Source: Acidimicrobiales bacterium
GTDB taxonomy: Bacteria > Actinomycetota > Acidimicrobiia > Acidimicrobiales > Palsa-688
Assembly: GCA_036378675.1 (NCBI GenBank)
Contig: DASUWA010000033.1
Span: 1 to 64,000, forward strand
Length of the DNA: 64,000 nt
Reading direction: 5' to 3'
The translations under genes were made by a program, and so were the position numbers. The notes under the pieces are model-generated. The model worked only from the letters and a program-made list of their open reading frames with translations. It searched no databases and was not told the DNA's origin. Shown here one piece after another: positions 40,409 to 64,000 of the stretch (positions within the stretch are counted from its first letter, which is position 1; each line of letters starts with the position of its first letter).

Positions 40409-41029
40409 ATGCCCAGAGCGAAGCAGCGGACTCCTGAACTGCGCGAGAAGGTCTTGCAGGTCGCTGTCGAGATGCTTACCAGCGATGGTCTCGCCGGGTT
40501 CACGGCCCGCAAGGTTGCCGAAGGGGCCGACACGTCGACTCCAGCGGTATACGAGCTGTTCGGTGACAAGGCCGGACTTGTGCGCGAGGTGTTCTTCGAA
40601 GGTTTCCGCATGCTGTACGGGCGCCTTGAGCACCTAGAGCACCTTGAATCATCGGCGGATCCACGGGCCGACCTCGCAGAGGTCATGCTGGTGCTGCGTC
40701 GCTTCGCCAGGGACAACCCCACTCTGGCCGAGCTCATGTTCTCCCGGCCCTTCGCCGACTTCGACCCCCGGCCCGCCGACCGGAATGCCGGGGCCGCCGT
40801 TCGGGAGTTCATCGTCGCCCGTGTCCGTCGCTGCATCGACGCGGGGATTATCTCGGGCGACCCGACTGATATCTCTCACGTTCTGTTAGCCGTGGTCCAA
40901 GGGCTCGCCTTGCAGGAGACGGCTGGTTGGCTTGGTAGCTCCAAAGCTTCGATAGACCGCCGTTGGAGTTTGGCCCTAGACGCAGTCCTTCGCGGGCTAT
41001 CCCCGGCAGGCGACAAGATCACGCGTTAG
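40409..41029 (+). CDS. TetR-family transcriptional regulator
   Basis: The product is 206 aa from ATG. The N-terminal helix-turn-helix is LREKVLQVAVEMLTSDG, FTARKVAEGADTSTPAVYELFGDKAGLVREVF. The ligand-binding C-terminal half is helical with an Ala/Leu-rich core. It follows the crotonase gene and likely controls it and perhaps the divergent dehydrogenase through the 13-bp repeat at 39626. An acyl-CoA or alcohol ligand is plausible. Its 3' end overlaps the convergent secreted-protein gene by 11 bases. Confidence 0.9.
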   Translation: MPRAKQRTPELREKVLQVAVEMLTSDGLAGFTARKVAEGADTSTPAVYELFGDKAGLVREVFFEGFRMLYGRLEHLEHLESSADPRADLAEVMLVLRRFARDNPTLAELMFSRPFADFDPRPADRNAGAAVREFIVARVRRCIDAGIISGDPTDISHVLLAVVQGLALQETAGWLGSSKASIDRRWSLALDAVLRGLSPAGDKITR

Positions 41030-41600
41030 TCGCCGAGGCCGCTCTGATCTGCCGCGGCGCGCCAGAGCCGACCGTCGTGGTGACCGTAAAGCTGCTCGGG
41101 AGACCACCCGGTGAGGCCTGGAGATAGACCGCGCTGCCAGGGCTCGTGGGCACGCCGACGGTCACCGGATATGTACCTGCCGCGACGCCGGAGAGAACCG
41201 TCGTCTGCACCCCGGTACAAGTAGGGAGCACGACGGTTGTCCACGCGACGCTGCAAGCGGTGAGGGTCACTGTCGGGGCCACGCCGCCGTTGAAGGCGAT
41301 GGAATAGGTGAGACCCGCAATCGTCACTGTTCCGGTGTTCCAGATGTTGAAGTACCAGGGGCTGAGCCCGGAACTGGTGAACGAGCCGCAAGACCCGGGG
41401 TTGCTCAAACAGGGAGGAGCTGATGTGACCGAGGTGGCAGCCGGAACGACGCCCCACGCGACCGCGGTCACCGAGCTCGTGCTCGAGATCGACCCGCCCG
41501 ATGTCGCCGGCGCCGACGCCGGAAAGACGAGCACCGACAGGAGAAGGGCAGCCGCAACCGCGGCTGCCCTTCTTGCCTGCACGGCAACGAGTGGGAACAT
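41019..41600 (-). CDS. Secreted protein paralogous to the adjacent SipW-type protein
   Basis: The product is 193 aa from ATG 41600. Residues 1-35 are a signal peptide ending around ASAPATS, normal Sec length. The mature part shares a clear pattern with its upstream neighbour: YFNIWNTGTVTIAGLT here versus YVNLNNTGTLASAAGMT there, and TACSVAWTTVVLPTCTG versus ITQCSLAWTVTGTCAG. Both therefore belong to one beta-rich fold with a conserved Cys pair, likely disulfide-bonded. It lacks any anchor. It lies in the sipW operon, 32 bases after the neighbour's stop. A second subunit of a fibre or pilus-like layer is a reasonable inference. Confidence 0.72.
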   Translation of the reverse strand: MFPLVAVQARRAAAVAAALLLSVLVFPASAPATSGGSISSTSSVTAVAWGVVPAATSVTSAPPCLSNPGSCGSFTSSGLSPWYFNIWNTGTVTIAGLTYSIAFNGGVAPTVTLTACSVAWTTVVLPTCTGVQTTVLSGVAAGTYPVTVGVPTSPGSAVYLQASPGGLPSSFTVTTTVGSGAPRQIRAASATNA

Positions 41601-41632
41601 CGACCCCTCGAGGTTCAGAGAACCTTGCCTGG

Positions 41633-42295
41633 TTAGGCGTTGGTCGTGGTGGCAGTCCGCTGCTGCTCGGTGAAGGTCCAGGTGATCGTCGTGCTGAGAC
41701 CCTGGATCGTCGAGGCAGGCAGCGTGCCGTTCGTCGATGTTTCCGTGCCAGCGAGCGTCAGTGTGAACTGAAGGTGGGCAAGCTGGCCGGTGCTGGCCGC
41801 CAGAGACGGCACGTTGGAAAGCGACTGCGCGCTCGAGAAGCTGGAGAGGGGCGTGCTCGCCAGAATTGTCGTCGTGGTACCCGCGCACGTGCCCGTGACT
41901 GTCCAGGCAAGGCTGCATTGGGTGATGGCCACGGAGAGGCCCTCGCCCGCGATGCTCCCGTTGGTGAGAGCGGTGACCGGGCTCGCCGCTGCTCCCAAGG
42001 TCATCCCTGCCGCTGAAGCGAGCGTGCCGGTGTTGTTCAAGTTCACATAGACGTTGTAGGTGTCTCCCGGGGCCATTCCGGTGATTGTTTCGGGAAGACC
42101 GCCGCTGGTTCCGTCATGGGTGAGTGTCATGAGTAGCGTCCCGGTGGTGACCGCAGACGTACCGGTCGCCGCCGCGCTGAGAGCGGCATAGGCACCGGCC
42201 CCAGTCAAGGACAGCGCGGACAGGACGAAGCAGGCCGCAAGGATCTTGCGGGTATTTCTCTTAGGACGCTGAGCGTGAGCTCCTCTAGTGGACAT
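41633..42295 (-). CDS. SipW-dependent secreted protein (TasA/CalY-like signal)
   Basis: The product is 220 aa from ATG 42295 after AAAGGGAGACACAA. Its N terminus, KRNTRKILAACFVLSALSLTG (shown in part) then AGAYAALSAAATGTSAVTTGT, matches the SipW-cognate signal class, in which the cleavage site is followed by an A-rich T/S segment as in TasA and camelysin-type biofilm proteins. The mature body is Thr/Ser/Gly-rich beta structure with NTGTL, CSLAWT and TCAGTTT. It should be exported and processed by the SipW-type peptidase encoded next to it and may form fibres. No LPXTG anchor. Confidence 0.78.
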   Translation of the reverse strand: MSTRGAHAQRPKRNTRKILAACFVLSALSLTGAGAYAALSAAATGTSAVTTGTLLMTLTHDGTSGGLPETITGMAPGDTYNVYVNLNNTGTLASAAGMTLGAAASPVTALTNGSIAGEGLSVAITQCSLAWTVTGTCAGTTTTILASTPLSSFSSAQSLSNVPSLAASTGQLAHLQFTLTLAGTETSTNGTLPASTIQGLSTTITWTFTEQQRTATTTNA

Positions 42296-42350
42296 TTGTG
42301 TCTCCCTTTCTGCTGCGAGTAATGCGACGGACTGTTTTGATGGCTGGGTG

Positions 42351-42962
42351 TTACGAGGTGGGAAAGTGAACGTGTGCGGCGGGCTTTTGAGGATGCAGCG
42401 GAGCGCGACGTTTCTGCGACGGAGCAAGCAAGGCCCTTGCACCCCAGATGCTCACCGCAATCCCGACCAGGCCGACGAGTAAGGCGCGCATCCAGGTTTT
42501 CGCGCCGCCGGCGAGAAGCCAACCGAGCTTGGGGACCTGCGCGACAACCTTGTACGCGGACGTCCCTTTGAGTTGAGCCCGCCAAGGGTCAGCGACCGGG
42601 TTGGCGTCGCCCTTGGTGGTGATGATCGGGTGGTTCGGAGAACCCCCAACGCTGATCACCCGGTGGGCAAACGCCGCCGCTGATCCGGGCGGGTGGAAGA
42701 GCAGGATCTCTCCGGGCTTCACCTGAGAGACAGGTATCGGGCGGGTGACGACCATCCAACCCGGACCAAAAGTCGGTCGCATGCTCCCCGACAGAATCGG
42801 GTGGACGGCCAGATGGAACCAGAACACTGCAACCGCGCTGAGCACCATGACGAGCGCGAGTGCGGCAACCAATACTGAGGCCAACGCACGCCAGGCGATC
42901 CAAACGAACCGCGATGCGCGACGCACGCGTACCCCGTAGTGAGCTGCCACGATCGTCGACAC
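42351..42962 (-). CDS. sipW: SipW-type (ER-type) signal peptidase I
   Basis: The product is 203 aa. A membrane helix (ASVLVAALALVMVLSAVAVF) precedes the catalytic Ser60 in ILSGSMRPTF. The second catalytic residue is His100 in AAFAHRVISVGG, not the lysine of standard bacterial enzymes, placing it in the ER-like SipW group. A second helix (MRALLVGLVGIAVSIWGARAL) lies near the C terminus. The annotated GTG at 42962 lacks a good ribosome site; GTG 42926 is an alternative. It is the first gene of a three-gene minus-strand unit with the two secreted proteins, its likely substrates. Confidence 0.85.
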   Translation of the reverse strand: MSTIVAAHYGVRVRRASRFVWIAWRALASVLVAALALVMVLSAVAVFWFHLAVHPILSGSMRPTFGPGWMVVTRPIPVSQVKPGEILLFHPPGSAAAFAHRVISVGGSPNHPIITTKGDANPVADPWRAQLKGTSAYKVVAQVPKLGWLLAGGAKTWMRALLVGLVGIAVSIWGARALLAPSQKRRAPLHPQKPAAHVHFPTS

Positions 42963-43288: not shown

Positions 43289-45661
43289 TCAGACGCCAAA
43301 GCACTCCAGCACCGCCAGGAAATCGTCGCCGTCGAGATCGAATGCCGAATCGGTCCGCGCACTGACTCCTGCAAGGACTGCGGCGACCCGAGCAGGCGGG
43401 AGCACCGCGCCGGTTGAATCGCGCAACACCGAACCTGCCGGAAGTTCGACTCGCACCCGAATCGGCCCTGTCACGAGCTTCTCTATCTCCTCCGCCGGGA
43501 CTGGCCGGCTGAAGAGATAACCCTGAACCTGGTCGCAACCCTGCTCTGACAGGAACTCGAGTTGGCCGACCGTTTCCACGCCTTCGGCCACCACCTTCAA
43601 GCCGAGGCTGTGGGCCAAGGCGATGACGGAACCCACTATCGGCGCTGCTCCAGTCTCGTTGTCGATCCGATGGACGAAGGAGGGATCGATCTTGATGGCG
43701 TCGACGGGCATCTCGGCTAAGTAGGTCAGCGCGCTGTAGCCGGTTCCGAAGTCGTCTATCGAGCAGCGGACACCCATCGAGCGCAGTTCGGCAAGGCTCG
43801 ACGACGTCTCTTGCATGTGCTCCACGAGAACGCTTTCGGTTACCTCCAACTCAAGAAGTGTCGGATCGAGCCCGGTTCGTTCGAGAACCTTGGCAACGAC
43901 TTGCACGACCGATTGGCGAACGAACTGCCGTGGCGACACATTGACGGCCACTGACAATCCTGACAGTCCTTGTTCCTGCCAGGACTTCGCCTGCAGGCAG
44001 GCCGTCTCCAGCACCCACTCCCCCAGCGTGGCGATGAGGCTGGTCTCCTCTGCCAGAGGGATGAAAGCCGAAGGCGGAATGAACCCAAGGCGTGGGTGCT
44101 CCCACCGGGCGAGTGCCTCGACGCCGGTTATCTGGCCGGTGGCGGCGGAGAGCTTCGGCTGGTAGTGGACGGTGAGCCGTCCTTGTTCGAGGGCGCCTCG
44201 GAGATTGGTCTCCAGAGCGAATCGCAGCTCCGCCTTGGCGCTCATGGCGGCGTTGTAGATCGAGTAGGTGTTTCGCCCTGCCGCCTTCGCTTGGTACATG
44301 GCGGTGTCCGCGTGTTTGAAGAGAGTCTCTGAATCCTCCCCGTCGTCGGGATACACCGCGACACCGATGCTGGTCTGCACGGGGAGCAGCTTCCCGCTGA
44401 CGTTGATCGGCTCCGAGAAGGCGGCGAGGACCCGTTCGGCGAGGTTCGCTCCAGCCTCTTTCCCCTCCACTTCGGGAAACAGGATCGTGAACTCGTCTCC
44501 TCCCATCCGGGCGAGGGTGTCCTTGGGCCGGAGCCGAGACTGCAGCCGCTTGACGACCGCCTGTAGGAGTTGATTGCCGACCGCGTGGCCGAGGCTGTCG
44601 TTCACACTCTTGAACCGATCGAGATCCAGGAACATGACGGCGACGGAACGTCCGTTGCGCCGGGCGTCGACGATGGCCGCGTCCAAGCGATCGTTGAAAA
44701 GGACCCGATTGCACACGCCGGTCAGGGGATCGTGCTGAGCCCGGTACTCGGCGGCGGATCGTGCGAACACCTGATAGAGCAGGTACATGACCGCAAGCGC
44801 CGGCAGCAAGGTGAACCCGGCGGTGAGCACCGGACGGCTGAAAGGAATGTGGAACGCCACCTTCACCGCGATGACAACAGGCGCGACCAGGACGCTGAAT
44901 ATCACGAGGACCACCTGTGCCCATCCGGGGCGGGTCGAACGGAGGGTGGCTGGGTCAAGAGCGCGTCGCTGCGAGTTGTGCAAGATGGCGCAGCTCCACA
45001 GGCACGTGCCCCACAGGATCGCTGCGTTCAGGGGGACAGGAAATGAGTGTGCGCCCATAAACAAGAGCGCCGTCGCGGTGGTGCGCGCGGCTAACAGGCA
45101 CATGAAGCCTCCGATCAGATACCGGTAGGCAACGGGATGGCGATCCGTCAGGGAGACGACGCTGGCTCCGAGCCAGAGCATCATGACCCCCAGTGCCGGA
45201 ACCGCCATGGGCAGCAGCTCACGCCCCGGGTCCCACCCCATCGACGGAACGACCACAAGTGAAAGCAGCGGGAAGCCGGCCGTGGCGGTGGCAACGGCCG
45301 CCCCGATAAGCGCTTCTCCCCAATGGCCGGGCACCCGCTGGTTGATGATCAGGACGAGCCCTGCGATGGTGATCAGCTCTCCGACGCTCGTGACCACGAG
45401 CGGGACACGGCCCTCCATCGACAACGCACCGGGTTCGAGTCCGGCTATTGCGGCGCCGATGAGATTGACCGCAAGACCGACGGTGACGACCCCCCATGAC
45501 ACGGTCCAGCCACGCCAATGCGACCTTCCGTTGGAACGTAGCCCGTAAACCGCGGCGCCTATCGCAAGGATCCCCACGACCACAGCCGTCAACGCGGGTG
45601 CGGTCGCGGTAGTCACTCGTATGAGCGCCGCGATCGCCGCTATTACCAGAACTGCCTTCAC
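43289..45661 (-). CDS. Membrane GGDEF-EAL protein (c-di-GMP cyclase/phosphodiesterase)
   Basis: The product is 790 aa from GTG 45661. Residues 1-320 are about nine hydrophobic helices (a MASE-like sensor region). The GGDEF domain (about 335-500) keeps the catalytic MGGDEF and the DPLTGVCNR, DLDRFK start. The EAL domain (about 515-760) keeps EALARW, DDFGTGYSALTYL and KIDPSFV, so both activities look intact. A short tail of about 40 residues follows. It should set c-di-GMP levels near the surface-protein genes. It is alone on its strand between the sipW operon and the sortase gene. Confidence 0.92.
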   Translation of the reverse strand: MKAVLVIAAIAALIRVTTATAPALTAVVVGILAIGAAVYGLRSNGRSHWRGWTVSWGVVTVGLAVNLIGAAIAGLEPGALSMEGRVPLVVTSVGELITIAGLVLIINQRVPGHWGEALIGAAVATATAGFPLLSLVVVPSMGWDPGRELLPMAVPALGVMMLWLGASVVSLTDRHPVAYRYLIGGFMCLLAARTTATALLFMGAHSFPVPLNAAILWGTCLWSCAILHNSQRRALDPATLRSTRPGWAQVVLVIFSVLVAPVVIAVKVAFHIPFSRPVLTAGFTLLPALAVMYLLYQVFARSAAEYRAQHDPLTGVCNRVLFNDRLDAAIVDARRNGRSVAVMFLDLDRFKSVNDSLGHAVGNQLLQAVVKRLQSRLRPKDTLARMGGDEFTILFPEVEGKEAGANLAERVLAAFSEPINVSGKLLPVQTSIGVAVYPDDGEDSETLFKHADTAMYQAKAAGRNTYSIYNAAMSAKAELRFALETNLRGALEQGRLTVHYQPKLSAATGQITGVEALARWEHPRLGFIPPSAFIPLAEETSLIATLGEWVLETACLQAKSWQEQGLSGLSVAVNVSPRQFVRQSVVQVVAKVLERTGLDPTLLELEVTESVLVEHMQETSSSLAELRSMGVRCSIDDFGTGYSALTYLAEMPVDAIKIDPSFVHRIDNETGAAPIVGSVIALAHSLGLKVVAEGVETVGQLEFLSEQGCDQVQGYLFSRPVPAEEIEKLVTGPIRVRVELPAGSVLRDSTGAVLPPARVAAVLAGVSARTDSAFDLDGDDFLAVLECFGV

Positions 45662-45992: not shown

Positions 45993-47120
45993 GTGGGGCA
46001 GGGCAGGCGCCGCCACCGATGGGTGGAGGCGGCAGTCAGTTTGGTTGTGATGACGGCGGGCTTGGCGTTGCTGGCGAATGTCTGGCTCTACCGTGAGCAC
46101 AGCGAGCGCGCCGCTTCGCGGCTGGTTGCTCGATTCGTCGGCTCCTCGGCGTCGCTCCAGAACCCGTCTTCGAAACTGGCGTCCCCAGCGCCGGCAGCGT
46201 CCGGAAACACTGCTCAACCGCTTTCCTGCGAGGGACCCGCACCTTCCTCGCGACCACTTGAGGGACAGGCGTCGATGCTCGTGGAGATACCTTCGCTCGG
46301 AGAGACGGCACCGGTGCTTCCCGGGACCAACGAGTCGGTGCTGTCGCAGGCGATTGGACATCTGGACTCCTCCGCGTGGCCCGACCAGGGCGGCACCGAC
46401 GTACTCGAAGCCCACGACGTGACCTTCCTCCGATCGATCGGGGATTTGAAGGATGGTCAGCAGGTCGATCTGGTCGGACGCTGCAAGACCTGGATCTACC
46501 AGGTCTCGACTCACTTCATCGCTCGCGAGGGCGAACCGATAATCGCCTCCGCCCCGTCGAGCGTTGTCCTGGTGACCTGCTGGCCGACCGATGCGCTCTA
46601 CTACACCAATCAGCGTTATGTGGTCGAAGCTGCCCTGGTGTCCAGCGTTGCCACTTCGCCGGTGCTCCTCGCTTCGACTTCGGCCGCGCCGCAGGTGCAG
46701 CCGGCGCTACCCGACGAACTGAAGGGAGCCAGTTTGAACGCCACCAAGGTCGGCATCCCCCTCGGCCGGCTCGAGTTCAAAGGAAGCTTCAGCCCTGGCT
46801 GGCTCAAGTCGCCCCGGCCCCTGCAAGCCTCTGACGCAGCAACCAACCTCCTCGAGGCCGCGGTCGTTGCAACTCGGGCCCACAATGACGCTTGGCTTCA
46901 GGTGATCGCCCCGAACCTCCCACCTTCTGAGCTGCAAACACTTGGTGTTCCGCTGAAGTGGACCGCTCCGGTGAACGTCGTCCTCTTCGGCGAGGGAACT
47001 CAGGTCACCGGAGCGAGCATGACGGCTTCGGTCAACATCGCAGGACGCGACGCCACGATGACTCTGACCACAACGGTCGGTCCTACTGGAATGGTCATCT
47101 CGGCGTTCACGCTGTCCTGA
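45993..47120 (+). CDS. Sortase-family transpeptidase with C-terminal extension
   Basis: The product is 375 aa from GTG. An N-terminal helix (WVEAAVSLVVMTAGLALLANV) anchors it. The sortase barrel spans about residues 92-225 with His141 in VLEAHDVTFLR, catalytic Cys196 in VVLVTCWPTD, and Arg208 in TNQRYVVEA, all three of the triad. A further 150 residues follow with a proline/serine-rich linker and a beta-rich domain unlike any sortase part I know. It should join surface proteins to the wall. The adjacent gene on the other strand encodes a surface protein with a C-terminal sorting-type tail; another with LPITG lies at 52725. Confidence 0.85.
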   Translation: MGQGRRRHRWVEAAVSLVVMTAGLALLANVWLYREHSERAASRLVARFVGSSASLQNPSSKLASPAPAASGNTAQPLSCEGPAPSSRPLEGQASMLVEIPSLGETAPVLPGTNESVLSQAIGHLDSSAWPDQGGTDVLEAHDVTFLRSIGDLKDGQQVDLVGRCKTWIYQVSTHFIAREGEPIIASAPSSVVLVTCWPTDALYYTNQRYVVEAALVSSVATSPVLLASTSAAPQVQPALPDELKGASLNATKVGIPLGRLEFKGSFSPGWLKSPRPLQASDAATNLLEAAVVATRAHNDAWLQVIAPNLPPSELQTLGVPLKWTAPVNVVLFGEGTQVTGASMTASVNIAGRDATMTLTTTVGPTGMVISAFTLS

Positions 47121-47131: not shown

Positions 47132-48634
47132 CTAGCGAGCCCGGACCTTTCTTCTACGGATCCCCAGGAACAACCCAGAGCCTCCGGCGATTAGCAGCGC
47201 CGCGCCGAGGATCTCCTCCCCGAGGAACGGCTTGCCGGTGTGGATGCTCGTCGCACCCAGGATGGCCTTTGACTGCGAGCCCGCTGGATCGGAGGTGTGG
47301 TTTGACCCCGACGGGATCGGTCCCCCACCGGGATTGTTTGATCCGGGCGTCTTGGAGCCAGGGCCACCGCTGCCAACGCCAGCGACGGGAGGGTTCGCGC
47401 CTGGCGTTCCGGAGCTGCTGGCCGGCGGCTGAGTGGCGGTGAACTGAACGCAGGATGACTGCGCGCTGAGGTTCTGGCCGTCGCCGCTGTAGACCGCGCG
47501 GTAGCTGTCCGGGCCAGGAGAGGGCGGGGTCAACGACGAGCCTGGAACGTTTCCCGAGCCGACCACCACCGTCTCGGTGGACACGGCGGGCCCGCCGCAG
47601 TTGCCGCCCGAATAGAGCGTGTAGGTAACTGTGCCAGACGCCTGGGGTGACGCGCCCGGAAGGATCGACCCGACCGGAGCGGCCGACTCTGCCTGCACCG
47701 AGGTGAGCCTGACGCCGCCGGGACCTTGTAACGACGCGGTGATCGACGGCACGAAGAAAAGGCTGTTCTCGTTGACGGACCGGTCCTGGCTCCCCAAGGA
47801 TCCCCCGTCCAAGGAGATCAGGAACATGTGGAACGGCGCGCCATTTATCGAGCTGGACGAGTTACCTGCTCCCCAGTCCGCGGCGGAGGCCAGGTGGGCG
47901 CCCCACGCGATGACGATGTCGTTGCTCGACCCGCCTCCGGTGAGGGAGAACGACACGTTCACGATCACAACACAGCCTCCCCCAAATGGTGTCGCGGTGC
48001 CGAGGCTCATGCCGGTGATCCTGGAGTTGGCCGGGCCGTACAGCTTGATGGCACCGGGCAGCTGCGTTCCCGAGAACGTTCCGGTTGCATTGCATGACGG
48101 TGACTCGGCACCGGCCATGCCCGCTGGCACGACCAGCGATGATGCCGGTTGGCTCGTGACGCAGTCCGACGCCGCCATTTGTCCCGACGCAACCACGTCG
48201 CCGCAGGGGTCGCTCTGGTTGGCGTGGAATGCGGAAGGCGAGTTGGAGGTGCTCTCGGTGCTGTCGAACGAGCCCAGGTAGTCGAAGGCGTGCTTGCCCT
48301 GGTCGGTAACCCGGTAACCGAACTGCAGGGTGTGCGGCCCTCCGGAAAGGCCGGCGATCACCGTTCTATAAGGGACGAGTTCCCCTTCCTGCCAGTGGGC
48401 CTTGGAGGAGTTCAGGTCACCGGTGACCCAGTTGGCACCCGCGCACGGCTCGAGCGTGGGCGCTGCTCCCGCTGCGCCCTCTCCGCCGTTCTGGCACTGC
48501 TGGAGGTTGGCCCCGGCAGGCGGTTGTCCTGCCAATGCCGATGAGGCAATCGGGAGGGACAAAGCTGCGGACGTCGCAGTCACGAGTCCCACCCGCAGCG
48601 ACCAGCGCCTCGCACATCCGATGGTTATCGACAT
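47132..48634 (-). CDS. Large surface protein with sortase-type C terminus
   Basis: The product is 500 aa from ATG 48634 after AAAGGGG. Residues 1-37 are a signal peptide. Several Cys pairs and Gly/Ser-rich beta segments follow, including a likely Ig-like unit (TYTLYSGGNCGGPAVSTETVV to DSYRAVYSGDGQN), then a Gly/Pro/Ser linker. The C terminus has HTG in a context SIHTGKPFLGEEILGAALL, then a hydrophobic stretch and RRRKVRAR, the layout of a sorting signal with an unusual recognition motif. It faces, and is convergent with, the sortase gene, 11 bases apart. Confidence 0.75.
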   Translation of the reverse strand: MSITIGCARRWSLRVGLVTATSAALSLPIASSALAGQPPAGANLQQCQNGGEGAAGAAPTLEPCAGANWVTGDLNSSKAHWQEGELVPYRTVIAGLSGGPHTLQFGYRVTDQGKHAFDYLGSFDSTESTSNSPSAFHANQSDPCGDVVASGQMAASDCVTSQPASSLVVPAGMAGAESPSCNATGTFSGTQLPGAIKLYGPANSRITGMSLGTATPFGGGCVVIVNVSFSLTGGGSSNDIVIAWGAHLASAADWGAGNSSSSINGAPFHMFLISLDGGSLGSQDRSVNENSLFFVPSITASLQGPGGVRLTSVQAESAAPVGSILPGASPQASGTVTYTLYSGGNCGGPAVSTETVVVGSGNVPGSSLTPPSPGPDSYRAVYSGDGQNLSAQSSCVQFTATQPPASSSGTPGANPPVAGVGSGGPGSKTPGSNNPGGGPIPSGSNHTSDPAGSQSKAILGATSIHTGKPFLGEEILGAALLIAGGSGLFLGIRRRKVRAR

Positions 48635-48766
48635 CGTTCTGAGCCCCTTTCAACGACAGACCGATTGGTGGCCACGGGGACGCCCGCGGCACCGCTAAAA
48701 CCGGGGAATCGGCACGCCGGGCGGAAACTGAATAGCCCCGGACGGACGTTGATGCGCTGTTGATAA

Positions 48767-48800
48767 CCCGGTGATCCGGCTTGATGGCCCGGTGATCCGG
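48767..48800. promoter_or_regulatory. Direct repeat CCCGGTGATCCGG, 21-bp period, between divergent genes
   Basis: The 13-bp CCCGGTGATCCGG occurs at 48767-48779 and 48788-48800, start-to-start 21 bp, that is two helical turns. It lies between the start of the surface-protein gene (48634) and pilB (48820), 20 bases upstream of pilB. This geometry suits a dimeric regulator binding on one face of DNA. Which regulator is unknown. Confidence 0.55.
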
Positions 48801-52413: not shown

Positions 52414-52724
52414 GTTGCCTTGTCCTCTCGAAGGAGGACGCCACTCAAAGTAGCTGACCTGACGCTCACGATGCCGGTATCGGTCGGCAAAGTGCGCGAT
52501 TTTCTCAGCTGGGCTTCTAATGGCTTAAGGCGCTTTTTCCCATCCAAGAACACATAAATGCCGAGGTCAGAGCCAAGGTTTCGGCCGGACCGAGCCTTGG
52601 TCGCCCTGGAAACCCGCTTCCCGTAGTACTGGACAGCACAGGACTCATTGATAGATACTGTGAGGTGTCAACTCGCCGAGTGGTGGGTACAACACGGCCA
52701 GAGACAATTGCGGAGGAGCGAATA
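52414..52724. other. Intergenic region with a bulged hairpin upstream of the LPITG gene
   Basis: This 311-base gap divides the divergent GGDEF and LPITG genes. CCAAGG (52573-52578) pairs with CCTTGG (52595-52600), with an inner CGG/CCG pair (52582-52584, 52590-52592), a bulged stem in the transcript leader of the downstream gene. A T-run (CTTTTTCCC) lies near 52532. I compared it with the c-di-GMP-I consensus and saw no match. Confidence 0.45.
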
Positions 52725-56350: not shown

Positions 56351-57288
56351 TCGACAGATTGCGGGTCGGCCGAGCGGAGCGTCAGGCCCGCCACGCGCCA
56401 CCAGGCTTGAGCACGGCGGCGGCCTTCTGGGACTTGCCCTCGCACTACCCTCAGCCCAGCGAGCACCAATCCGAGCACCGCTCTCGCGAAGACAACTGCC
56501 CTGACAATCGAGTAAGACTGCGGGTTGCGGAGCCGGTGGTACCTCAACAGGCTTCTGTATAGGTGCGGCCACAAATGAGCCGGGTCGCGGCTACTGGCAC
56601 CACCCAGGTGCAGAGCTTCCGCTCCGCTGATCTGGGCGACGCGGAGACCCGCTTCGCGCGCTTGCCAGCAAAGTTCCACGTCCTCGTAGTACATGAAGTA
56701 GCCGTCGTCCAAACCCCCAATACCCTTCAATAGGTTCGTCCGCACCGCAAGACAAGCGCCAGATAGCCAGTCCACGTCAATCAGGACGCCATCGGAATCG
56801 GGCGGGCGGGACTTTCGTAGCCCGTTCAAACGAGCGATCTTGCGCTTCACACTCAGAGGCACCAGACTGCCGCCGAATCGGCTTACGATTAACCTCGATA
56901 CCGTTTCGAATGGATGAGCGCTAACTACGAGGCGTCCCCGAGCATTCACCAATTGCGGTCCGACAATGCCTAGGGTTGGGTCCGCGCTCAGTGTGTCGAG
57001 CATCGCCCACGCCGTTGACTCGGGCAACACACAGTCTGGGTTGACTAGCAGCACCTCAGAGTGCTCCACACAAAGCAGAGCCTGATTAACAGCGGCGGCA
57101 AATCCGAGGTTCACGTAATTGCCCACAATCACGGCATCCGGCGCTACCCGACGAACGATGTTCACTGTTTCGTCGGTCGAGGCGTTATCGACGACGCAGA
57201 GCGAAATGCCGGTTCGCGCTAGCGCTGATAAGCACGTCTCGATCTCCGGGGCCGAGTTATGCGTCACAACGATGGCGGATGCGCTCAT
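56341..57288 (-). CDS. Glycosyltransferase family 2
   Basis: The product is 315 aa from ATG 57288, whose start overlaps the ligase stop (TGATG). The GT-A fold has AIVVTHNSAPEIETCLSAL, VVDNASTDETVNI and LLVNPDCVLPEST (the DxD position reads NPD). SGACLAVRTNLLKGIGGLD and YYEDVELCWQAREAG complete the rhamnosyl/glucosyl-transferase-like pattern. It adds a sugar to the growing repeat unit on the cytoplasmic face. Confidence 0.87.
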   Translation of the reverse strand: MSASAIVVTHNSAPEIETCLSALARTGISLCVVDNASTDETVNIVRRVAPDAVIVGNYVNLGFAAAVNQALLCVEHSEVLLVNPDCVLPESTAWAMLDTLSADPTLGIVGPQLVNARGRLVVSAHPFETVSRLIVSRFGGSLVPLSVKRKIARLNGLRKSRPPDSDGVLIDVDWLSGACLAVRTNLLKGIGGLDDGYFMYYEDVELCWQAREAGLRVAQISGAEALHLGGASSRDPAHLWPHLYRSLLRYHRLRNPQSYSIVRAVVFARAVLGLVLAGLRVVRGQVPEGRRRAQAWWRVAGLTLRSADPQSVECE

Positions 57289-58601
57289 CAAGTTCGCCCC
57301 GGCATCGGCATGATGGATACCGCCGGTTCGTGGTTTCGCCCCAGAAGCGTCGCTGTGATCACGACCAAAGCTGGAAGCAACCCCAGATCCCAGTGACCGT
57401 CAGTGGGGCCTCCGAACGCAGCGCTGATCACAAAGCCAATCGTTAACGCGATAAGGATCCTCGTCCAAGGTACTCGCATCGAGATGCCGATTCGAATAGT
57501 CCGAATCAAGATCCATCCGAGAGCCAAGGCAAGCACTAGGCCTCCGTTGGCCAATATTGACACATACCACACGTGATATATCGGTCCGACGTCTGTTACC
57601 CGAAACGTCGGAAGAAAGACGTCGTGCCGCGTCTGCCCGAGCCCGTTTCCCAGTAGCGGGTTAGCCCAGAAGACATGTAGGCCGACATTGGCTTCGGCCG
57701 CGCGGTATCCCGCTGTTTGGTGCAACTCGTCCCTTAGTACCTGAAGTCGGTGGTCAAGACCCGGGCTGACGAGTACGCCGACGAAAATCGTCATCGCTGA
57801 GAGCACGATAACCTGAACGACCATTCGACGCAGCCGCCGGCCGGCTAGAGGAAGCATCAACAACAGAGCTACTGCAGCGGCCAACCAGGTCGCTCTATAC
57901 GAAGCCAAAAGGGTATCGACTGCAAGAATCACGGCGATCGCTACCAAGAGGAACCGCCGAGCGCCGTGGCTTCGCCCCGCAGCAAATAAGACCACCGGAA
58001 GTGCGATCAGAGATGGGAACCCGCCGTGTCGTCCAGGAGAGGCGAAGCCAGTGACGGCCAAGGCTGTAGCCACGAAAACAAACAACCATGCCGCTTTCTG
58101 TAGCCAGCTCCTGCTCGCCAAGGTAACTGTGGCAACCAGGTAATAAGCGGGAATCACGCCTAACTCGTAGGTGGCCACGAGTAGCTTGTGGCTTTGATTT
58201 CCGACCGCTATACCCCACGCCGTGACCAAGAGAAGCACCACTGCGTATGACAGCATCGGCGTATCGAGAGTGGTGGCCACACGTCGAGGCACCGCTCCGA
58301 ACGTCGCTCGGGTGCACCAACCCAGCATGCCGATCACGAGAATCCCCACGTGTACCGCTATGACGAACGTTACTGAGGCGTGCGGTCGCAGGCCTGCGAG
58401 AACGATGCCGCCTGCGACGCCAAGAGGCAATGTCGCCCACGGCCAAAACGCAAAGGCCGCCGTCGCGAACAGGCAGCCGATTATCAGAGCAAGGATTCGT
58501 GATGGGACATTTACAACGGCAGCTGCCGCGAGGACTGACACGACGAGAATGGCACCGCCCCAGATCACCTTGCCACGCGGCAGCTCAAGAGAGAGCATCA
58601 T
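57288..58601 (-). CDS. O-antigen ligase / polymerase-family membrane protein
   Basis: The product is 437 aa from an ATGATG pair at 58601 (one base after the preceding stop). About 11 helices are present, with LPRGKVIWGGAILVVSVLA at the start and the large outside loop about 290-340 (HRLQVLRDELHQTAGYRAA, then FWANPLLGNGLGQTRHDVF) that carries the family motif, with the NGLG part typical of Wzy/WaaL proteins. It polymerises or transfers the polysaccharide outside the membrane. Confidence 0.85.
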   Translation of the reverse strand: MMLSLELPRGKVIWGGAILVVSVLAAAAVVNVPSRILALIIGCLFATAAFAFWPWATLPLGVAGGIVLAGLRPHASVTFVIAVHVGILVIGMLGWCTRATFGAVPRRVATTLDTPMLSYAVVLLLVTAWGIAVGNQSHKLLVATYELGVIPAYYLVATVTLASRSWLQKAAWLFVFVATALAVTGFASPGRHGGFPSLIALPVVLFAAGRSHGARRFLLVAIAVILAVDTLLASYRATWLAAAVALLLMLPLAGRRLRRMVVQVIVLSAMTIFVGVLVSPGLDHRLQVLRDELHQTAGYRAAEANVGLHVFWANPLLGNGLGQTRHDVFLPTFRVTDVGPIYHVWYVSILANGGLVLALALGWILIRTIRIGISMRVPWTRILIALTIGFVISAAFGGPTDGHWDLGLLPALVVITATLLGRNHEPAVSIMPMPGRT

Positions 58602-58602
58602 C

Positions 58603-60654
58603 TCAGGGTCGACGGCTTATCGGAATGTCCAGTTCGGACAATGCTTGCTCGAGAATTTCGCCGCGACGACTCCAACTGTTGGCGATGGCAAGCTGTCGCA
58701 ATGTCGAACTAGACCAGCCGTTTCCGGCGTCCTGGGCGAGAATCGACTCGATCGCATCCACCAGTGATCCTGAGGTGGACGCAAACCACACAGGAACTTG
58801 GCTGGCTACTACGGCAGGCAGCGGCGTCGAGACCACCGGCTTGCCAGCCGCGAGGTATTCATAAAGCTTCTTCGGGTGGACGTAGCGCGTCCGAGAGCTG
58901 ACCTTATAAGGGATCAGCGATACGTCGAAGGAGCGAAGGACTTCGGGAACGGCGTCGTAGCTCACCGAACCCAGGAGGTGGATGTTTTCCATGGCAGAAA
59001 GCCGCCGACAAACGGAGCGGCGCCCCGGCCCCACCAAGACGAAGGTCCAATTGGGACGCAATCTTGCTGCACCAAGGACAAGCTCAGTATCGAAAGCCCG
59101 CTCGTCGAGTGCGCCCAGATAGCCGATCCGAGGAGCCGCCAGATCGGCGACATCCGGGTTAAGGCCTCCATTGGGCGCGAAGTGCTCGGGATCGCACCCA
59201 TTGACGAGTTCGATGAGTGCCGCGGGTTCGGCTGGTAACTCGAGGGCGAGTTGGCTGGAGGAAGTGAATACAATTTCTGCCTTCGCGAGGCACCGTTTAC
59301 ACGAACGACGCAGATAGCGGCGGTTCCACCAACGAGCGAAGGTCCAGTCAAGATCGCCAATGTCATATACGCGATGCCGCTCTTGGATCCGACCGCTCAT
59401 CGGTTCCGCCAAGTCCTCGTCTAACCACAACAACCGCGGTCCAGGGTGCAGGTCTAGCCACCTGCGCAATATGCGACTGGCCACAACCCTATTGACGTAG
59501 TTGGCCACTGGGAGGTGACGGTAGAGCGGGAGAATGGTCGGGAGGGTTGCAGCCCAGATCCCTCGCTCTATTGGAACAACCTGAAACACCAGGCTGGGCT
59601 TCAACGAGGGAGGCTCGAGAAAAAGAACCCGGCGGGACCGGGCGAGCAGTCTGCTCAACGCATGCACTCTCTGACGGGGATCGTTCCAAGGCACTGGGCT
59701 GCACACAATTACCCAGGTGTCGCCAGGTGGTTGAGGAAGGGAGCCGGGCTCGCCCTTCAGGGCCGCCATAAGGTCCCCCAAGGGCATCCGGCCAGGCAAT
59801 CGGGCCGCCAGTCTGAACACTCGATCAATAAAGGTACCGCCCAAGAAAAGCCACAGGAGAGGCCGACTCAGCGTTTGGCTTCTGCGCAAATATCGAACCA
59901 GCGAGGCGAGGTGGTGGCGCGCTCGAATGTGGTCAGGCAGTCGGAAGCATGAGGCGCCCAGCGCATGCATGACAGTAGCGGCCGGCTCTATCCAGAGTTG
60001 CCGTCCGGACAGGCCGATCCGGCGAGCCAGGTCGACGTCGTTGAAATAGAGCGGATAACCCTCGTCCATGAGCACGACGTCGGAATCATCGCGACGCAAC
60101 AGCAGGCAGCTCGCGACCGGTTGAGGAACCGCGCGTGCGGCCGAAAGGTCGACATCCCGCATCTCGAAAGTGGCGTATTGCCTTCGAAACCATGGGAATC
60201 GCCTCAGCATGGCGATTGAGCCGAATACCGAAGCGGGTACCGGCAAGCGCCGGCAAGACAGTTGTAGGCTTCCATCAGGGTCGAAATGTGCCGGACTCAC
60301 TCCGGCGGCGGCGGGATGCTTGTCCAGAAATTCAACCAATCGGCTCAGCGCGGTCTGAGAAACTTCAACGTCTGAGTTTAGGAGCAGAACGTACCTCCCC
60401 CGAGCATGACAATACGCTTGATTGACGGCAGCCGCGTAACCGAGGTTACGCTGGTTAGAGATGAGAGTAATGTCGGACTTTGCCTTCAACATGTCCCGGC
60501 TCCCGTCGCTAGACCCGTTATCAACGACGATTACCTCGAACTCAGTGCCGGGAGCCACGCTGGCCTGCAAGGAATCCAAACATTTCCGTGTGAGATCGCG
60601 GGTCTCCCAGCTAACAATCAGTACTGACACGTCGACGGGCCGGTCGTGCTTCAC
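58603..60654 (-). CDS. GT2-GT4 fused glycosyltransferase
   Basis: The product is 683 aa from GTG 60654, whose GTGA overlaps the methyltransferase stop; longer frames start inside that gene. Residues 1-270 are GT2: VDVSVLIVSWETRDLTRKC, VVDNGSSDGSRDM, LLLNSDVEVSQ and a DVDLARR end. Residues 310-683 are GT4-like: GDTWVIVCSPVPWNDPRQR and RIGYLGALDERAFDTELV, ending in VHPKKLYEYLAAGKPVVST. Two linkages in one protein suggest coordinated addition of adjacent sugars. Both domains keep the key motifs. Confidence 0.85.
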   Translation of the reverse strand: MKHDRPVDVSVLIVSWETRDLTRKCLDSLQASVAPGTEFEVIVVDNGSSDGSRDMLKAKSDITLISNQRNLGYAAAVNQAYCHARGRYVLLLNSDVEVSQTALSRLVEFLDKHPAAAGVSPAHFDPDGSLQLSCRRLPVPASVFGSIAMLRRFPWFRRQYATFEMRDVDLSAARAVPQPVASCLLLRRDDSDVVLMDEGYPLYFNDVDLARRIGLSGRQLWIEPAATVMHALGASCFRLPDHIRARHHLASLVRYLRRSQTLSRPLLWLFLGGTFIDRVFRLAARLPGRMPLGDLMAALKGEPGSLPQPPGDTWVIVCSPVPWNDPRQRVHALSRLLARSRRVLFLEPPSLKPSLVFQVVPIERGIWAATLPTILPLYRHLPVANYVNRVVASRILRRWLDLHPGPRLLWLDEDLAEPMSGRIQERHRVYDIGDLDWTFARWWNRRYLRRSCKRCLAKAEIVFTSSSQLALELPAEPAALIELVNGCDPEHFAPNGGLNPDVADLAAPRIGYLGALDERAFDTELVLGAARLRPNWTFVLVGPGRRSVCRRLSAMENIHLLGSVSYDAVPEVLRSFDVSLIPYKVSSRTRYVHPKKLYEYLAAGKPVVSTPLPAVVASQVPVWFASTSGSLVDAIESILAQDAGNGWSSSTLRQLAIANSWSRRGEILEQALSELDIPISRRP

Positions 60655-61502
60655 GGTGCCGTCCTCGCTAATAAGCGGATGTTGTCCCCATCGTGCGGGT
60701 GCACTCGATGGAATGTGCGGGCCCACCACAAGTCTCGAAACGTAGCTCTCAGCATCTCGGGAGAAACCCAGTGTTCCGGGGGCACGTACATCCTGGTGAA
60801 TGCAGTATCCAACTGGCACACTTCAAAGCCCACCCTGTGAACTAAGGCGACCAGTGTTTCGGGGGTGAAGTGCCAGCGGTGATATCTAGGCTGCAGTGCC
60901 GGCCAAGCGGGTCCCTGATTTGCCGCAGCGGCGGACGCCAAGTTTGGTACCTCTAAGGCCAGATATCCGCCGCCTCCGAGTACCTGGCGTACCCGCGTAA
61001 GGAAGCGGCGAGGATCCTCCACGTGTTCAAAAACGTGGAAACCGCAGACAAGGTCGACCTCGGTGTCGAAGGATGATTCTTCGAAGGTTCCAGTCCGACA
61101 GTCAACCGCAAGGTCTCGTGTGGCGTACTCCACAGCTTCACCTGAGGGATCGATTCCAAATGCCGCGATTCCACGCTGAACGGCGGCCTCCACGAAGAAT
61201 CCCCCAGCGGCTCCGACCTCAACCAGGGAGTGCGCGTCTAAATGGCTCAATATCCAGTCAAGCCGGCGACGAGCAATGAAACGCCACAATGGAGCCCGCT
61301 CGAAGTATCGCGAGTACCCTCCACTCTCGTAGTACTCAGCATCGTAGAGATCGGGTTGCGATGGTTCGGCAACAGCCAACCGAGTTGAGACTAAGCCACA
61401 CCCGTCGCACTCTTCGATCACGTCTCCCCACGTGGGGTTCAGGCGACGCTCCATTGCTCCGCAGAGTGGACACGAACGCTCGACGACTTCAGCGGACTGC
61501 AT
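60651..61502 (-). CDS. Class I SAM methyltransferase with N-terminal zinc ribbon
   Basis: The product is 283 aa from ATG 61502 (CCGGAG nine bases upstream; GTG 61544 is possible), overlapping the flippase end by 14 bases. A Cys-rich start (RSCPLCGAMERR, then EECDGCGLVSTR) forms a zinc ribbon, followed by a SAM fold with LVEVGAAGGFFVEA and FGIDPSGEAV, and HVFEHVEDPRRFLTRV. Such proteins methylate or otherwise modify sugars or glycan ends. It is in the middle of the operon. Confidence 0.85.
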   Translation of the reverse strand: MQSAEVVERSCPLCGAMERRLNPTWGDVIEECDGCGLVSTRLAVAEPSQPDLYDAEYYESGGYSRYFERAPLWRFIARRRLDWILSHLDAHSLVEVGAAGGFFVEAAVQRGIAAFGIDPSGEAVEYATRDLAVDCRTGTFEESSFDTEVDLVCGFHVFEHVEDPRRFLTRVRQVLGGGGYLALEVPNLASAAAANQGPAWPALQPRYHRWHFTPETLVALVHRVGFEVCQLDTAFTRMYVPPEHWVSPEMLRATFRDLWWARTFHRVHPHDGDNIRLLARTAP

Positions 61503-63090
61503 CTGAGGGAACTCCGGTTGAGGAAGGCGAAGATCCTGTGGCACTACTCATCACGGCCTGAACAAGACTTAGGTGAGATGATCCGCGCAACCATTCGATC
61601 AATCCCAAAATCAGGAGGCTGGCTGCAACAACCAAGACGGTTCCACTCCCGAGGGCAAGGACCGTCACAGCGCTCGATAGCCGACCAGAGAAATGGATTT
61701 GTCGGGCGGCCAGGGCCATTGTCACGCCGGCCAGTGCCGACGACACGAACGGGATGCCAATGGCTCGCCACAAGAGGGCCGCTGGACGGTCTGGGTCGCG
61801 ATGAAAGCGTGCCAGCAAGTAGACGATCCCTAACGCGCCCGCCAGAGACGTGCCGACGGGTGCTCCGATCGGACCCACGATAATTACCGCTGGCACAGTA
61901 ATGGCAACGTTGGCTATCGCCGTGATAACTGAATAGCGCGCTGGTATACCCGGCCTACCCTCTGCCCAACAGAGAGTCGTTGCTGCGCCCCCAACTATGG
62001 CCAGAGTGCATCCGGGGACCAGTATCGTCAGGGTCTTTGCGGCGAAAGGGATCTGGCGCCCTAGCCAAAGCTCCACGAGGGGGCGGGAACAGACTATGAA
62101 TACAGCTCCGGAGGTAAACGAGAATACCGCCAAGCGGTGGGTGGCCCTGTAATACAGCGCGGTCAACTCGTCCCGCTTTCCCTCTGCGACGAGTTGCGCT
62201 GCTAGGGGGAATGTGGTCGACAACGCCAAGAAGGGCAGCAGCCGAAGCCCGTTGACCAACTTTGATCCGAGATCGAACCATCCTGCGGTGGCCGCTCCCG
62301 CGATCCCTCCTACTACAAGTCGGTCTGTGTCGTTGTTGACGACGCTTGCGACATTCGAAACTTGCACTCTCGTGCCGTAGGCCAATAGCGGGTGCAGACG
62401 ATGGCGAGGAAACCCCTTGAAACGGGATCTGAACGCCGCGCCATGACGCAGTGAGCGGCTTCGCAGGAGAGTCGCCTGCAGCGAACTCCCTGCGACCGCG
62501 ACCATCCCCAAGCCCGGGAGTCCTTTGCTCAAGATGACCGCGAACGCGTCTCCGAGTGCAATGACCACAGCGGCCACCGTCGAAATCGCTGCGACGTCCG
62601 AGAAGCGTCTCTTCCCCTCGAGAACAGCGCGCCACGGGGCCGCGAAGGCGTCGATAGCAAAGGACGTAATAACGAATAGAGCGCAATAGCGGTAATCCGA
62701 TCCGACTCCCAATCGCGGAACTAAGTCGGCCAGTACGGGCCATGTGGCCACGGTCAGCACCATCAATAGACCTGCGATTGCCAAACCCCAATACCTGACA
62801 AGCTTGAGCGCAAGAATGGCGACCGTCGGATCCGAAACTTCAACAGTCCGAGCCACCTCTCGGACCGCCGTCTTGGAGAGGCCGAGGTCAGCGAGACTGA
62901 CCAGAGCAACCAATCCGGAAATGATCGACCAAGTGCCGAAACGGGCAGCACCCAAGCGCGATAAGAGAATCGGCGTTACGGCGACCGCTGCTAACAGGCC
63001 GCTGATCCGGGCAGCCGCCAACGCTGCGGTGTTGGCAGCAATCCCTCGTGCTACAGCGGCGCCGCTTCTGCCAACCCGAGATTCGGCCAA
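61489..63090 (-). CDS. Polysaccharide flippase (Wzx/PST-type)
   Basis: The product is 533 aa from TTG 63090, with one base between it and the preceding stop. About 13-14 helices are expected, starting VARGIAANTAALAAARISGL and LSRLGAARFGTWSIISGLVA. VVNNDTDRLVVGGIAGAATAGWF is the typical conserved part of the PST family. It moves lipid-linked oligosaccharide across the membrane. The gene group starts with the initiating transferase just upstream. Confidence 0.9.
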   Translation of the reverse strand: MAESRVGRSGAAVARGIAANTAALAAARISGLLAAVAVTPILLSRLGAARFGTWSIISGLVALVSLADLGLSKTAVREVARTVEVSDPTVAILALKLVRYWGLAIAGLLMVLTVATWPVLADLVPRLGVGSDYRYCALFVITSFAIDAFAAPWRAVLEGKRRFSDVAAISTVAAVVIALGDAFAVILSKGLPGLGMVAVAGSSLQATLLRSRSLRHGAAFRSRFKGFPRHRLHPLLAYGTRVQVSNVASVVNNDTDRLVVGGIAGAATAGWFDLGSKLVNGLRLLPFLALSTTFPLAAQLVAEGKRDELTALYYRATHRLAVFSFTSGAVFIVCSRPLVELWLGRQIPFAAKTLTILVPGCTLAIVGGAATTLCWAEGRPGIPARYSVITAIANVAITVPAVIIVGPIGAPVGTSLAGALGIVYLLARFHRDPDRPAALLWRAIGIPFVSSALAGVTMALAARQIHFSGRLSSAVTVLALGSGTVLVVAASLLILGLIEWLRGSSHLSLVQAVMSSATGSSPSSTGVPSDAVR

Positions 63091-63091
63091 G

Positions 63092-64000
63092 TTATCGACC
63101 TTGAAAACGCAGGATGCTCGACAAGGTCATCAATCCGATCCTTAGATCGAGCCCGAGAGACTGGTACCGCATGTAATAGAGGTCGCGCTCAAGTTTTCGG
63201 GTCGCCTCGTCGAGCGACGAGCTGTACCCTTCGTGCACCTGCGCCCATCCGGTGATGCCGGGCTTCACGATGGTACGTTTATCGTAGAAGGGGATCAGTT
63301 TGCGGTAGATCTCAACCCACTGAGGACGCTCCGGCCTCGGCCCGATGAGCGATAGATCGCCCCGGATGAGGTTCAGCGCTTGCGGAAGTTCATCGACACG
63401 GCACCGGCGAATGACGCGGCCAACCGCGGTAACACGTTCATCTTTATGGCGGGCGAACTGGGGCCCATCCTGCTCTGCCGTGGTGGACATGCTGCGGATC
63501 TTGTGCAGCGTGAAGACCTTGCCATGCTGGCCCACTCGCCGCTGCGAGAAGAACAGCGGTCCTCTGGAATCGAGTTTTACTGCGACGGTGATGAACGGCA
63601 GCAACACCAACAAGACGACGCCGGCAGCCACGCCGAAGACTAGATCCACGATTCGCCTCGCGAAGCGATACCCGAGACGATGAAGCGGGCCGATATCGAA
63701 AACAAACCATGACCCATCGAGGCTCCCAAGGCGCACCCGGCTCAATTCTTCCTCAAAGAAGTGGCCAATAGAGGAGATCCGGGTTCCGTACTCATTGATC
63801 CGCGCGAGTTCGATTAGGAGTCTTTGATCGCCACGTACGCGATCTCCGACCACGAGCTTTGTCGGGCGCACCATCTTGCACCACGAGACCAAGTCGCCGG
63901 TGACCACCACGCCTCCCCGGTCCTTAGTCAGATCAACGCACTCTGCTCTAGTCAACGAGAGCCTGCTTGTCCCCACCTCCTTAAAGGCCGCCAGGACTTC
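63092..64000 (-). CDS. Initiating sugar-phosphate transferase (WbaP/EpsL-type), cut by window end
   Basis: The reading frame runs off the right edge; at least 300 residues are visible. The C-terminal catalytic domain is clear: RRIVDLVFGVAAGVVLLVLL helix, GPLFFSQRRVGQHGKVF, LHKIRSMSTTAE, DELPQALNLIRGDLSLIGPRPERP and KPGITGWAQVHEG, the bacterial sugar-transferase signature. The part upstream (VVTGDLVSWCKMVRPTKLVVG) is the end of an N-terminal Rossmann-like CoA-binding region. It transfers a hexose-1-phosphate to undecaprenyl phosphate and starts the repeat unit. GTG 63976 is an internal possible start, but the frame continues beyond. Confidence 0.9.
   Translation of the reverse strand, partial: EVLAAFKEVGTSRLSLTRAECVDLTKDRGGVVVTGDLVSWCKMVRPTKLVVGDRVRGDQRLLIELARINEYGTRISSIGHFFEEELSRVRLGSLDGSWFVFDIGPLHRLGYRFARRIVDLVFGVAAGVVLLVLLPFITVAVKLDSRGPLFFSQRRVGQHGKVFTLHKIRSMSTTAEQDGPQFARHKDERVTAVGRVIRRCRVDELPQALNLIRGDLSLIGPRPERPQWVEIYRKLIPFYDKRTIVKPGITGWAQVHEGYSSSLDEATRKLERDLYYMRYQSLGLDLRIGLMTLSSILRFQGR

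Follow-up and report, generated by a model that had tools for sequence, protein, structure and literature searches.

A sortase and a convergent surface protein with a predicted non-LPXTG sorting signal form the conserved pair within a mosaic locus of an Acidimicrobiales bacterium

The window analysed here, 64,000 nucleotides of contig DASUWA010000033.1 from an Acidimicrobiales bacterium, encodes a sortase (45993..47120, + strand) and, converging on it, a secreted surface protein (47132..48634, − strand; hereafter protein 47132). Judging from genome comparison, the two are a true and widely conserved pair, and the pairing recurs in dozens of Acidimicrobiia genomes. We regard it as probable that they constitute a dedicated sortase–substrate pair with its own non-LPXTG signal, lying outside classes A–F and distributed across the Acidimicrobiia, and we read the enzyme as belonging to a sortase class not described before, which has a sorting signal of its own. 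The segment in which the pair lies (41019–64000) is, as far as gene order indicates, a mosaic of separate modules, of which this pair is the conserved unit. An earlier note had interpreted the same segment as a single c-di-GMP-regulated biofilm-matrix system: the gene content that it listed is borne out, every gene being present on the strand stated (by Pfam, NCBIfam and sequence); as for the joint placement, the sortase and protein 47132 do belong together, and SipW/TasA-like genes lie near the sortase in two other genomes, but the rest of the composite does not hold.

The sortase and its convergent partner

The sortase consists of an N-terminal membrane helix, a β-barrel (approximately residues 95–220) and a C-terminal domain (46689..47120, +). 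It scores above the cut-off of PF04203 (Pfam Sortase, E 2.7e-16) and possesses the catalytic residues His141, Cys196 and Arg208, all three of which are invariant in 42 of 42 relatives from the family, here termed the HTG family. A relative of the enzyme occurs in Acidithrix ferrooxidans. The AlphaFold model (pLDDT 86.8) is a sortase β-barrel with a membrane anchor and matches PDB sortases with Z up to 19, the top match being C. perfringens SrtD (4d70). The C-terminal domain is modelled with a pLDDT of 95.0 and corresponds to no Pfam or NCBIfam model, searches against these (Pfam for 38 members) giving nothing informative; a Foldseek search with the domain returned no match below 0.001, and the best structural match (Z 9.5) is to the CaMKII hub and further NTF2-like folds. 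On these middling matches, which do not indicate a ligand, the domain, a hallmark of the HTG family, may be assigned as NTF2-like. The window genome has three other sortases; it lacks a 700-aa membrane protein that adjoins several relatives of the sortase (at L122, L123 and further loci).

The stop codons of the two genes are separated by 11 bp and, being convergent, the genes do not form a single operon in the window. Protein 47132 (500 aa), the proposed cognate substrate, begins with a signal peptide and terminates in SIHTGKPF, a membrane helix and an Arg/Lys tail. Its earlier description as 'wall-type' stands as regards the shape of this sorting signal and fails as regards LPXTG, which is absent. 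The signal, ATSIHTGKPFLGEEILGAALLIAGGSGLFLGIRRRKVRAR (47138..47254, −), matches our tail profile with E 1.7e-13, the profile itself including the window sequence, and it is the only such tail in the window genome; Pfam and NCBIfam models gave nothing informative for the substrate tails. Relatives of the ectodomain occur in three related genomes (G007, G039 and G008) and on contig C48 of the same genome, that of G007 ending in LAFTG rather than in an HTG tail. A search of the open-access literature for the HTG motif, or for sortases with an NTF2-like domain, retrieved nothing relevant.

Recurrence of the pairing across genomes

The HTG motif was first noticed in only two pairs, those of the window and of locus L006, and was then tested on 43 further loci collected by sortase sequence. 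HTG[EK] tails are present at 22 of these 43 sortase loci, whereas the 139 control loci (876 kb) have none, nor does reversed DNA; the trend is opposite for canonical L[PA]xTG tails (1/43 versus 14/139). Around 15 of the 43 have no HTG tail in the DNA covered; some contigs stop nearby, and in one genome (G031) the tail is on a different contig from the sortase. The reverse test, in which the tail profile was run on 298 genomes of the order, located tails in 37 genomes: at 20 of 48 tail loci the stretch includes an HTG-family sortase, which is almost always the adjacent gene, and at the remaining 28 there is none within the stretch covered. Among 61 relatives, only five possess a sortase of the HTG family, and tails with E < 1e-10 occur in just three genomes (G000, G031 and G058), all of which are among these five, although these matches are not independent, since the profile was built from members. 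The 67 distinct tail clusters define the motif [TP][STA][VAT]-H-T-G-[EK]-P-[WF], in which the T-G core is kept and TG-[EK]-P-[WF] is conserved, whereas neither a Leu at P4 nor a Pro at P3 is.

The N-terminal signal peptide would direct export of protein 47132 and the C-terminal helix would retain it in the membrane, and the sortase would then cut between the Thr and Gly of the motif ([TP][STA][VAT]-H-T^G-[EK]-P-[WF]; S-I-H-T^G-K-P-F in the window). Cleavage would proceed through a thioester with Cys196, to be followed by covalent joining to an acceptor in the envelope, most likely peptidoglycan. More tentatively, and with the balance leaning slightly against it, the family may be an undescribed class that, within the searches made, is confined to the Acidimicrobiia, that attaches between one and four proteins in each genome via x-[VA]-H-T-G-[EK]-P-[WF] with the help of the NTF2-like domain, and that sits repeatedly in Mce lipid-transport operons; if so, covalent anchoring would serve the lipid uptake machinery in those lineages.

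The SipW/TasA-like genes

A SipW/ER-type signal peptidase (42351..42962, −; TIGR02228 65.2 bits, cut-off 51.85), with its Ser-His dyad in SGSM...AHR, lies beside a TasA/camelysin-like exported protein (41633..42442, or 41633..42295 with the inferred start codon, −; PF12389, Peptidase_M73, 24.3 bits, cut-off 22.5) and a second exported protein (41019..41918, or 41019..41600 with the inferred start codon, −), recognized by sequence similarity as a paralogue of the first (36% over 91 aa, E 4e-7). With the Bacillus SipW model NF046067, the peptidase scores 36.4 against a cut-off of 190. Neither an HTG tail nor a sorting signal is present on the TasA-like proteins. The trio is seen again in genome G015 (72% identity for the TasA-like protein and 47% for the second exported protein), where its neighbours are unrelated.

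A SipW gene with a TasA-like gene is found near an HTG-family sortase at 2 of the 43 loci (L122, which also has an EAL protein, and L125; expected 0.1, P ~0.005), and in C. perfringens a sortase gene, srtB, flanks sipW-bsaA (PMC7395162). Such observations would fit a scheme in which the SipW and TasA-like proteins and the HTG sortase are recurrent, co-selected surface modules, combining fibre export with anchoring and independent of PilB and c-di-GMP. We consider this unlikely, however, as no SipW lies near the sortase or tail in another set of 48 loci (P 0.018 for the sets combined), both the G015 trio and a tasA–sipW pair in G039 are away from any HTG-family sortase, and the BsaA polymers of C. 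perfringens form without need for the flanking sortase (PMC7395162). The recurrence suggests a weak link, and we retain the dedicated sortase–substrate pair as the conserved unit, flanked by SipW/TasA, PilB, c-di-GMP and EPS genes that are separate modules.

Placement among the sortase classes

In a tree, the HTG family splits cleanly from other sortases, with no exceptions and moderate support (0.86). The window sortase falls below all NCBIfam class cut-offs and matches no curated family. Its best scores are with class D models, which match all 42 members (71.8 versus a cut-off of 140 bits, and 69.3 versus 165 bits); with class E and class C it scores 41.6 and 28.9 bits, respectively (cut-off 160 in each case), and class F matches just 3 of the 42 members (best E 0.00059). 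The LPXTA-type signal of class D was not seen on the neighbouring substrates, the 67 tail clusters having a T-G core.

The experimentally studied sortase classes recognize LPXTG-like cores, namely, LPXTG, NPXTN, LPXTA and LAXTG, the last being an example of an altered signal that is accepted, by class E (PMC5148588). Given such tolerance, and the class D scores, the enzyme might be viewed as a conventional sortase of class D or E whose LPXTG-like signal has diverged slightly, and as nothing new in kind. This is improbable: the scores lie far under the class cut-offs, conservation resides in TG-[EK]-P-[WF] and not at P4 and P3, only a single locus of the 43 has canonical signals near the HTG sortase, and there is the extra NTF2-like domain to be accounted for. 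A separate class with its own signal remains our reading of the family.

The PilB, c-di-GMP and exopolysaccharide genes

Upstream of the sortase in window coordinates is a membrane GGDEF-EAL protein (43289..45661, −; Pfam EAL 4.9e-78, GGDEF 4.3e-52) with intact GGDEF, RxxD and EAL motifs; it has a paralogue on contig C51 (65%), and its best relative, in G007 (63%), is located among other GGDEF-EAL genes. The second GGDEF protein (50929..52413, −; Pfam GGDEF 2.4e-28) has a membrane helix at its C-terminus, with a tail rich in Pro and Thr on the outside; within the loci covered, L138 and L145 have a relative of it close to the sortase. Overall, c-di-GMP genes occur near the HTG-sortase family at 6 of the 43 sortase loci and 5 of the 48 tail loci, which is about their genome-wide density, and they were rejected as general companions of the sortase on this basis. 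A search for a c-di-GMP riboswitch upstream of a target gave no match up to E 1. The c-di-GMP regulation proposed earlier finds no support in riboswitches or gene linkage.

The PilB/T2SSE paralogue (48820..50547, +), identified from its sequence and containing MshEN, lies outside the sortase pair. It is an 'orphan', as previously described, insofar as pilT and pilC are lacking here, but the genome has another PilB in a full type IV pilus cluster on contig C31, to which the window protein is 77% identical; it was accordingly rejected, as a second copy, as a lineage-specific companion of the sortase. In a tree its branch is long and its placement next to the C31/G007 clade weakly supported, and across 60 related genomes PilB adjoins pilT in most loci checked and never the sortase. 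Since its first MshEN motif reads QLG, not RLG, c-di-GMP binding cannot be assumed. A plasmid origin was also rejected, the matches being of PilB type only.

A small surface protein with a canonical LPITG signal (52665..53252, +, its start formerly given as 52725; TIGR01167 19.6 bits, cut-off 15.9) is probably served by another sortase of the genome. It is followed by a Wzz/BY-kinase (53355..55106, +; Pfam Wzz, and NCBIfam eps_fam above cut-off) and by the exopolysaccharide operon (55208..64000, −; Pfam), whose presence is confirmed and whose last gene runs past the window end to completion at contig position 64543. The operon comprises GT1, GT2, Wzy, GT2-GT1, methyltransferase, Wzx and sugar-phosphate transferase genes and, with a GC content of 0.59–0.60 versus ~0.64, is a separate low-GC module.

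That all 23 kb form one c-di-GMP biofilm-matrix system, in which SipW would export TasA-like fibres, the sortase anchor them, c-di-GMP gate PilB and the EPS genes add polysaccharide, is very unlikely: all the parts are present, L122 and L125 provide partial parallels and C. difficile sortase substrates are controlled by c-di-GMP (PMC4591827), but no other genome examined unites them with PilB, the second GGDEF protein or the EPS genes, and gene order in relatives, which led us to reject the composite, puts the sipW trio, sortase, pilB and GGDEF genes in separate contexts, the very pattern that the earlier note had associated with separate modules.

Implications

Sortase classes are defined by the peptide that they cut. 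If our explanation is correct, a natural sortase with HTG-[EK]-P-[WF] partners would add a specificity beyond the LPXTG-like cores, provide a rule for annotating surface proteins in a class that is ecologically common yet poorly cultured, the Acidimicrobiia, and supply a peptide ligase that may be orthogonal to those now used. The pairing also corrects the tempting, yet unsupported, account of a composite c-di-GMP matrix island.

Comparison with known systems

In C. difficile, the c-di-GMP control of sortase substrates acts through riboswitches, and the signal of SrtB is of a modified XPXTG type that keeps the Pro of the core. The HTG signal departs from LPXTG as does that of SrtB, but has no conserved Pro at P3. 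Sortase substrates of C. difficile are under c-di-GMP control (PMC4591827, PMC4155245), whereas no c-di-GMP riboswitch was found at the window locus. As in the SipW–TasA matrix modules of B. subtilis and C. perfringens (PMC7395162), a SipW-type peptidase adjoins TasA-like proteins, known here from the genes, and a sortase gene lies in the neighbourhood, as it does directly beside sipW-bsaA of the latter organism; in contrast to both, the window sortase has its own tagged substrate and a sorting signal is missing from the TasA-like proteins.

With class E, represented by S. coelicolor SrtE1 (5cuw; LAXTG; PMC5148588), the HTG sortase shares an actinobacterial origin, the same fold (Z 17.2) and a non-canonical T-G signal, at which cleavage would here take place, whereas the class E signal has Leu at P4 and Ala at P3, and the additional C-terminal domain is peculiar to the HTG enzyme. 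The likeness to class D (NF058671 and NF033746; B. anthracis SrtD, 2ln7; C. perfringens SrtD, 4d70) extends to the best profile scores, the catalytic barrel, the His-Cys-Arg residues and the small size; the HTG sortase is set apart from it by scores below the cut-offs, by an HTG-[EK]-P-[WF] signal in place of LPXTA, by its C-terminal NTF2-like domain and, in the genomes scanned, by its confinement to the Acidimicrobiia.

The sortase pairs with a tail of its own type

The gene for the surface protein at 47132-48634 (-), hereafter protein 47132, converges on the sortase gene (45993-47120, +). At the C-terminus of its product, ATSIHTGKPF precedes a membrane helix and RRRKVRAR, an arrangement typical of sorting signals, although LPXTG is absent. 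Genome G058 (locus L006) has such a sortase directly downstream of a protein ending in TTVHTGEFW, a helix and RRR; in the sortase-bearing genome G031, a different contig encodes a protein with the C-terminus TTAVTGKPF, a helix and RRQRR. Scanning the sortase alignment against 84,980 species genomes gave 43 loci of the Acidimicrobiia type, one of them from the isolate Acidithrix ferrooxidans, together with weak hits on other sortases. HTG[EK], the pattern chosen on the initial pairs before these loci were counted, occurs as a tail in 22 of the 43 as against none of 139 control loci (and none in reversed DNA), whereas LPXTG/LAXTG tails show the opposite trend (1/43 versus 14/139). In the reverse direction, 298 genomes of the order were scanned with a profile built from 29 tails: 37 contained between one and four tails each, and the sortase lay within the fetched stretch in 20 of 48 tail loci, nearly always as the next gene; the two sets overlap, since some genomes of the same species are in both. 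Among 61 relatives, strong tails were confined to G000, G031 and G058, all of which carry the sortase. The consensus of 67 tail clusters is [TP][STA][VAT]-H-T-G-[EK]-P-[WF]-x-G.

The ectodomain of protein 47132 also occurs in genome G007, there with an LAFTG tail, and one surface domain could therefore be assigned to different sortases by a tail swap. A second small LPITG surface protein, at 67407-68048 of the window's contig (L092:7408-8049), resembles the 52665 protein in size and tail.

Gene order in relatives

Every gene that the earlier note listed in 41019-64000 was found there (the window covers positions 1-64000 of contig C33, which spans 87.7 kb, in an assembly of 4.1 Mb in 75 contigs); its proposal that they form one c-di-GMP-regulated biofilm-matrix system is contradicted by gene order in relatives. 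The sipW (42351-42962, -), tasA-like (41633-42295, -) and exported-protein trio recurs in G015 (72, 47 and 40% identity) in a different order and among unrelated neighbours. The closest relative of the GGDEF-EAL protein (43289-45661, -), at 63%, is in G007, surrounded by other GGDEF-EAL genes; the window's own genome holds a 65% paralogue on contig C51 and at least 11 more at E < 1e-60. PilB (48820-50547, +) is 77% identical to that heading a full T4P cluster on contig C31 of the same genome (pilB, pilT, pilC, prepilin peptidase, pilM and others); pilT follows pilB in most relatives' loci, and is missing after the window's pilB. The EPS genes (55208-64000, -) fall in DNA with a GC content of ~0.59-0.60 from ~54 kb onward, versus ~0.64 elsewhere. 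A c-di-GMP riboswitch was sought, and none was found.

The two exported proteins are paralogues (36% across 91 aa, E 4e-7), and the TasA-like one scores above the camelysin model's threshold. Both end in TNA, mostly TTNA, in the window (41019-42442) and in L109:1881-3142, the ends being kept in both genomes despite diverged ectodomains. Two tandem 21-bp repeats (48760-48801), with no further copy in the window, lie directly upstream of pilB, where the divergently transcribed genes for PilB and protein 47132 have a common promoter region. The GGDEF protein at 50929-52413 starts with its cytoplasmic catalytic domain, followed by a membrane helix; the tail after this helix is rich in Pro and Thr, is predicted to lie outside the cell, and includes LPATG with no helix after it. 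A 126-bp tandem repeat (1.9 copies; 2615-2855) appears to be within a coding region.

Neighbours of the sortase family

SipW and a TasA-like gene lie close to a family sortase in loci L122 and L125 (0.1 loci expected; P ~0.005), and in none of 48 further loci (pooled P 0.018). In C. perfringens, a sortase gene adjoins sipW, and is dispensable for BsaA polymerisation (PMC7395162). On contig C135 of G039 (L099:9303-14507), which belongs to another family of the order, tasA-like and sipW genes are followed ~1.5 kb downstream, on the same strand, by a GGDEF-EAL gene, an independent example of sipW beside a c-di-GMP enzyme.

An Mce operon adjoins the sortase in at least 12 of the family's 43 loci and in two of the overlapping tail-first set; the HTG substrate-sortase pair accompanies it in L125, L128, L129, L132, L136, L137, L140, L142, L145, L146, L147 and L159, and also in L228 and L231. 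These lipid-transport operons comprise an MlaE/YrbE permease (225 bits for MlaE in L129) and Mce proteins. Beside the sortase, 7 of the 43 (L122, L123, L124, L127, L135, L152 and L157) encode a conserved polytopic protein of the membrane, ~700 aa long and matching no Pfam family, which is absent from the window's genome.

Structure and proposed mechanism

All 42 family members match sortase models, the window's member far below the class cut-offs, and a sortase-domain tree splits the family, with no exceptions, from other Acidimicrobiia and clostridial sortases (support 0.86). The catalytic residues His141, Cys196 and Arg208 are invariant among the 42. In the structure model (pLDDT 86.8), a membrane helix at the N-terminus is followed by a sortase barrel and then by a distinct C-terminal domain; the top PDB match of the barrel is C. 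perfringens SrtD (Z 19.0, rmsd 2.4, 148 residues). Modelled by itself (pLDDT 95.0), the C-terminal domain resembles the CaMKII hub (Z 9.5, rmsd 2.5, 97 residues), and its matches, which agree in kind with middling scores, are consistent with an NTF2-like fold.

By analogy with known sortases, protein 47132 would be secreted and halted in transit by its C-terminal helix, whereupon Cys196 would attack after the Thr of S-I-H-T^G and the protein would be handed to an envelope acceptor. The analysis establishes the fold, the catalytic residues, the motif and its pairing with the sortase; we infer the cleavage and acceptor, as well as a role for the C-terminal domain. Pfam and NCBIfam hold no model for HTG tails or for the extra domain, and no paper on a signal of this type was found in the open-access literature searched. 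Overall, we read the window's enzyme and its relatives as a class of sortases that has a signal of its own.
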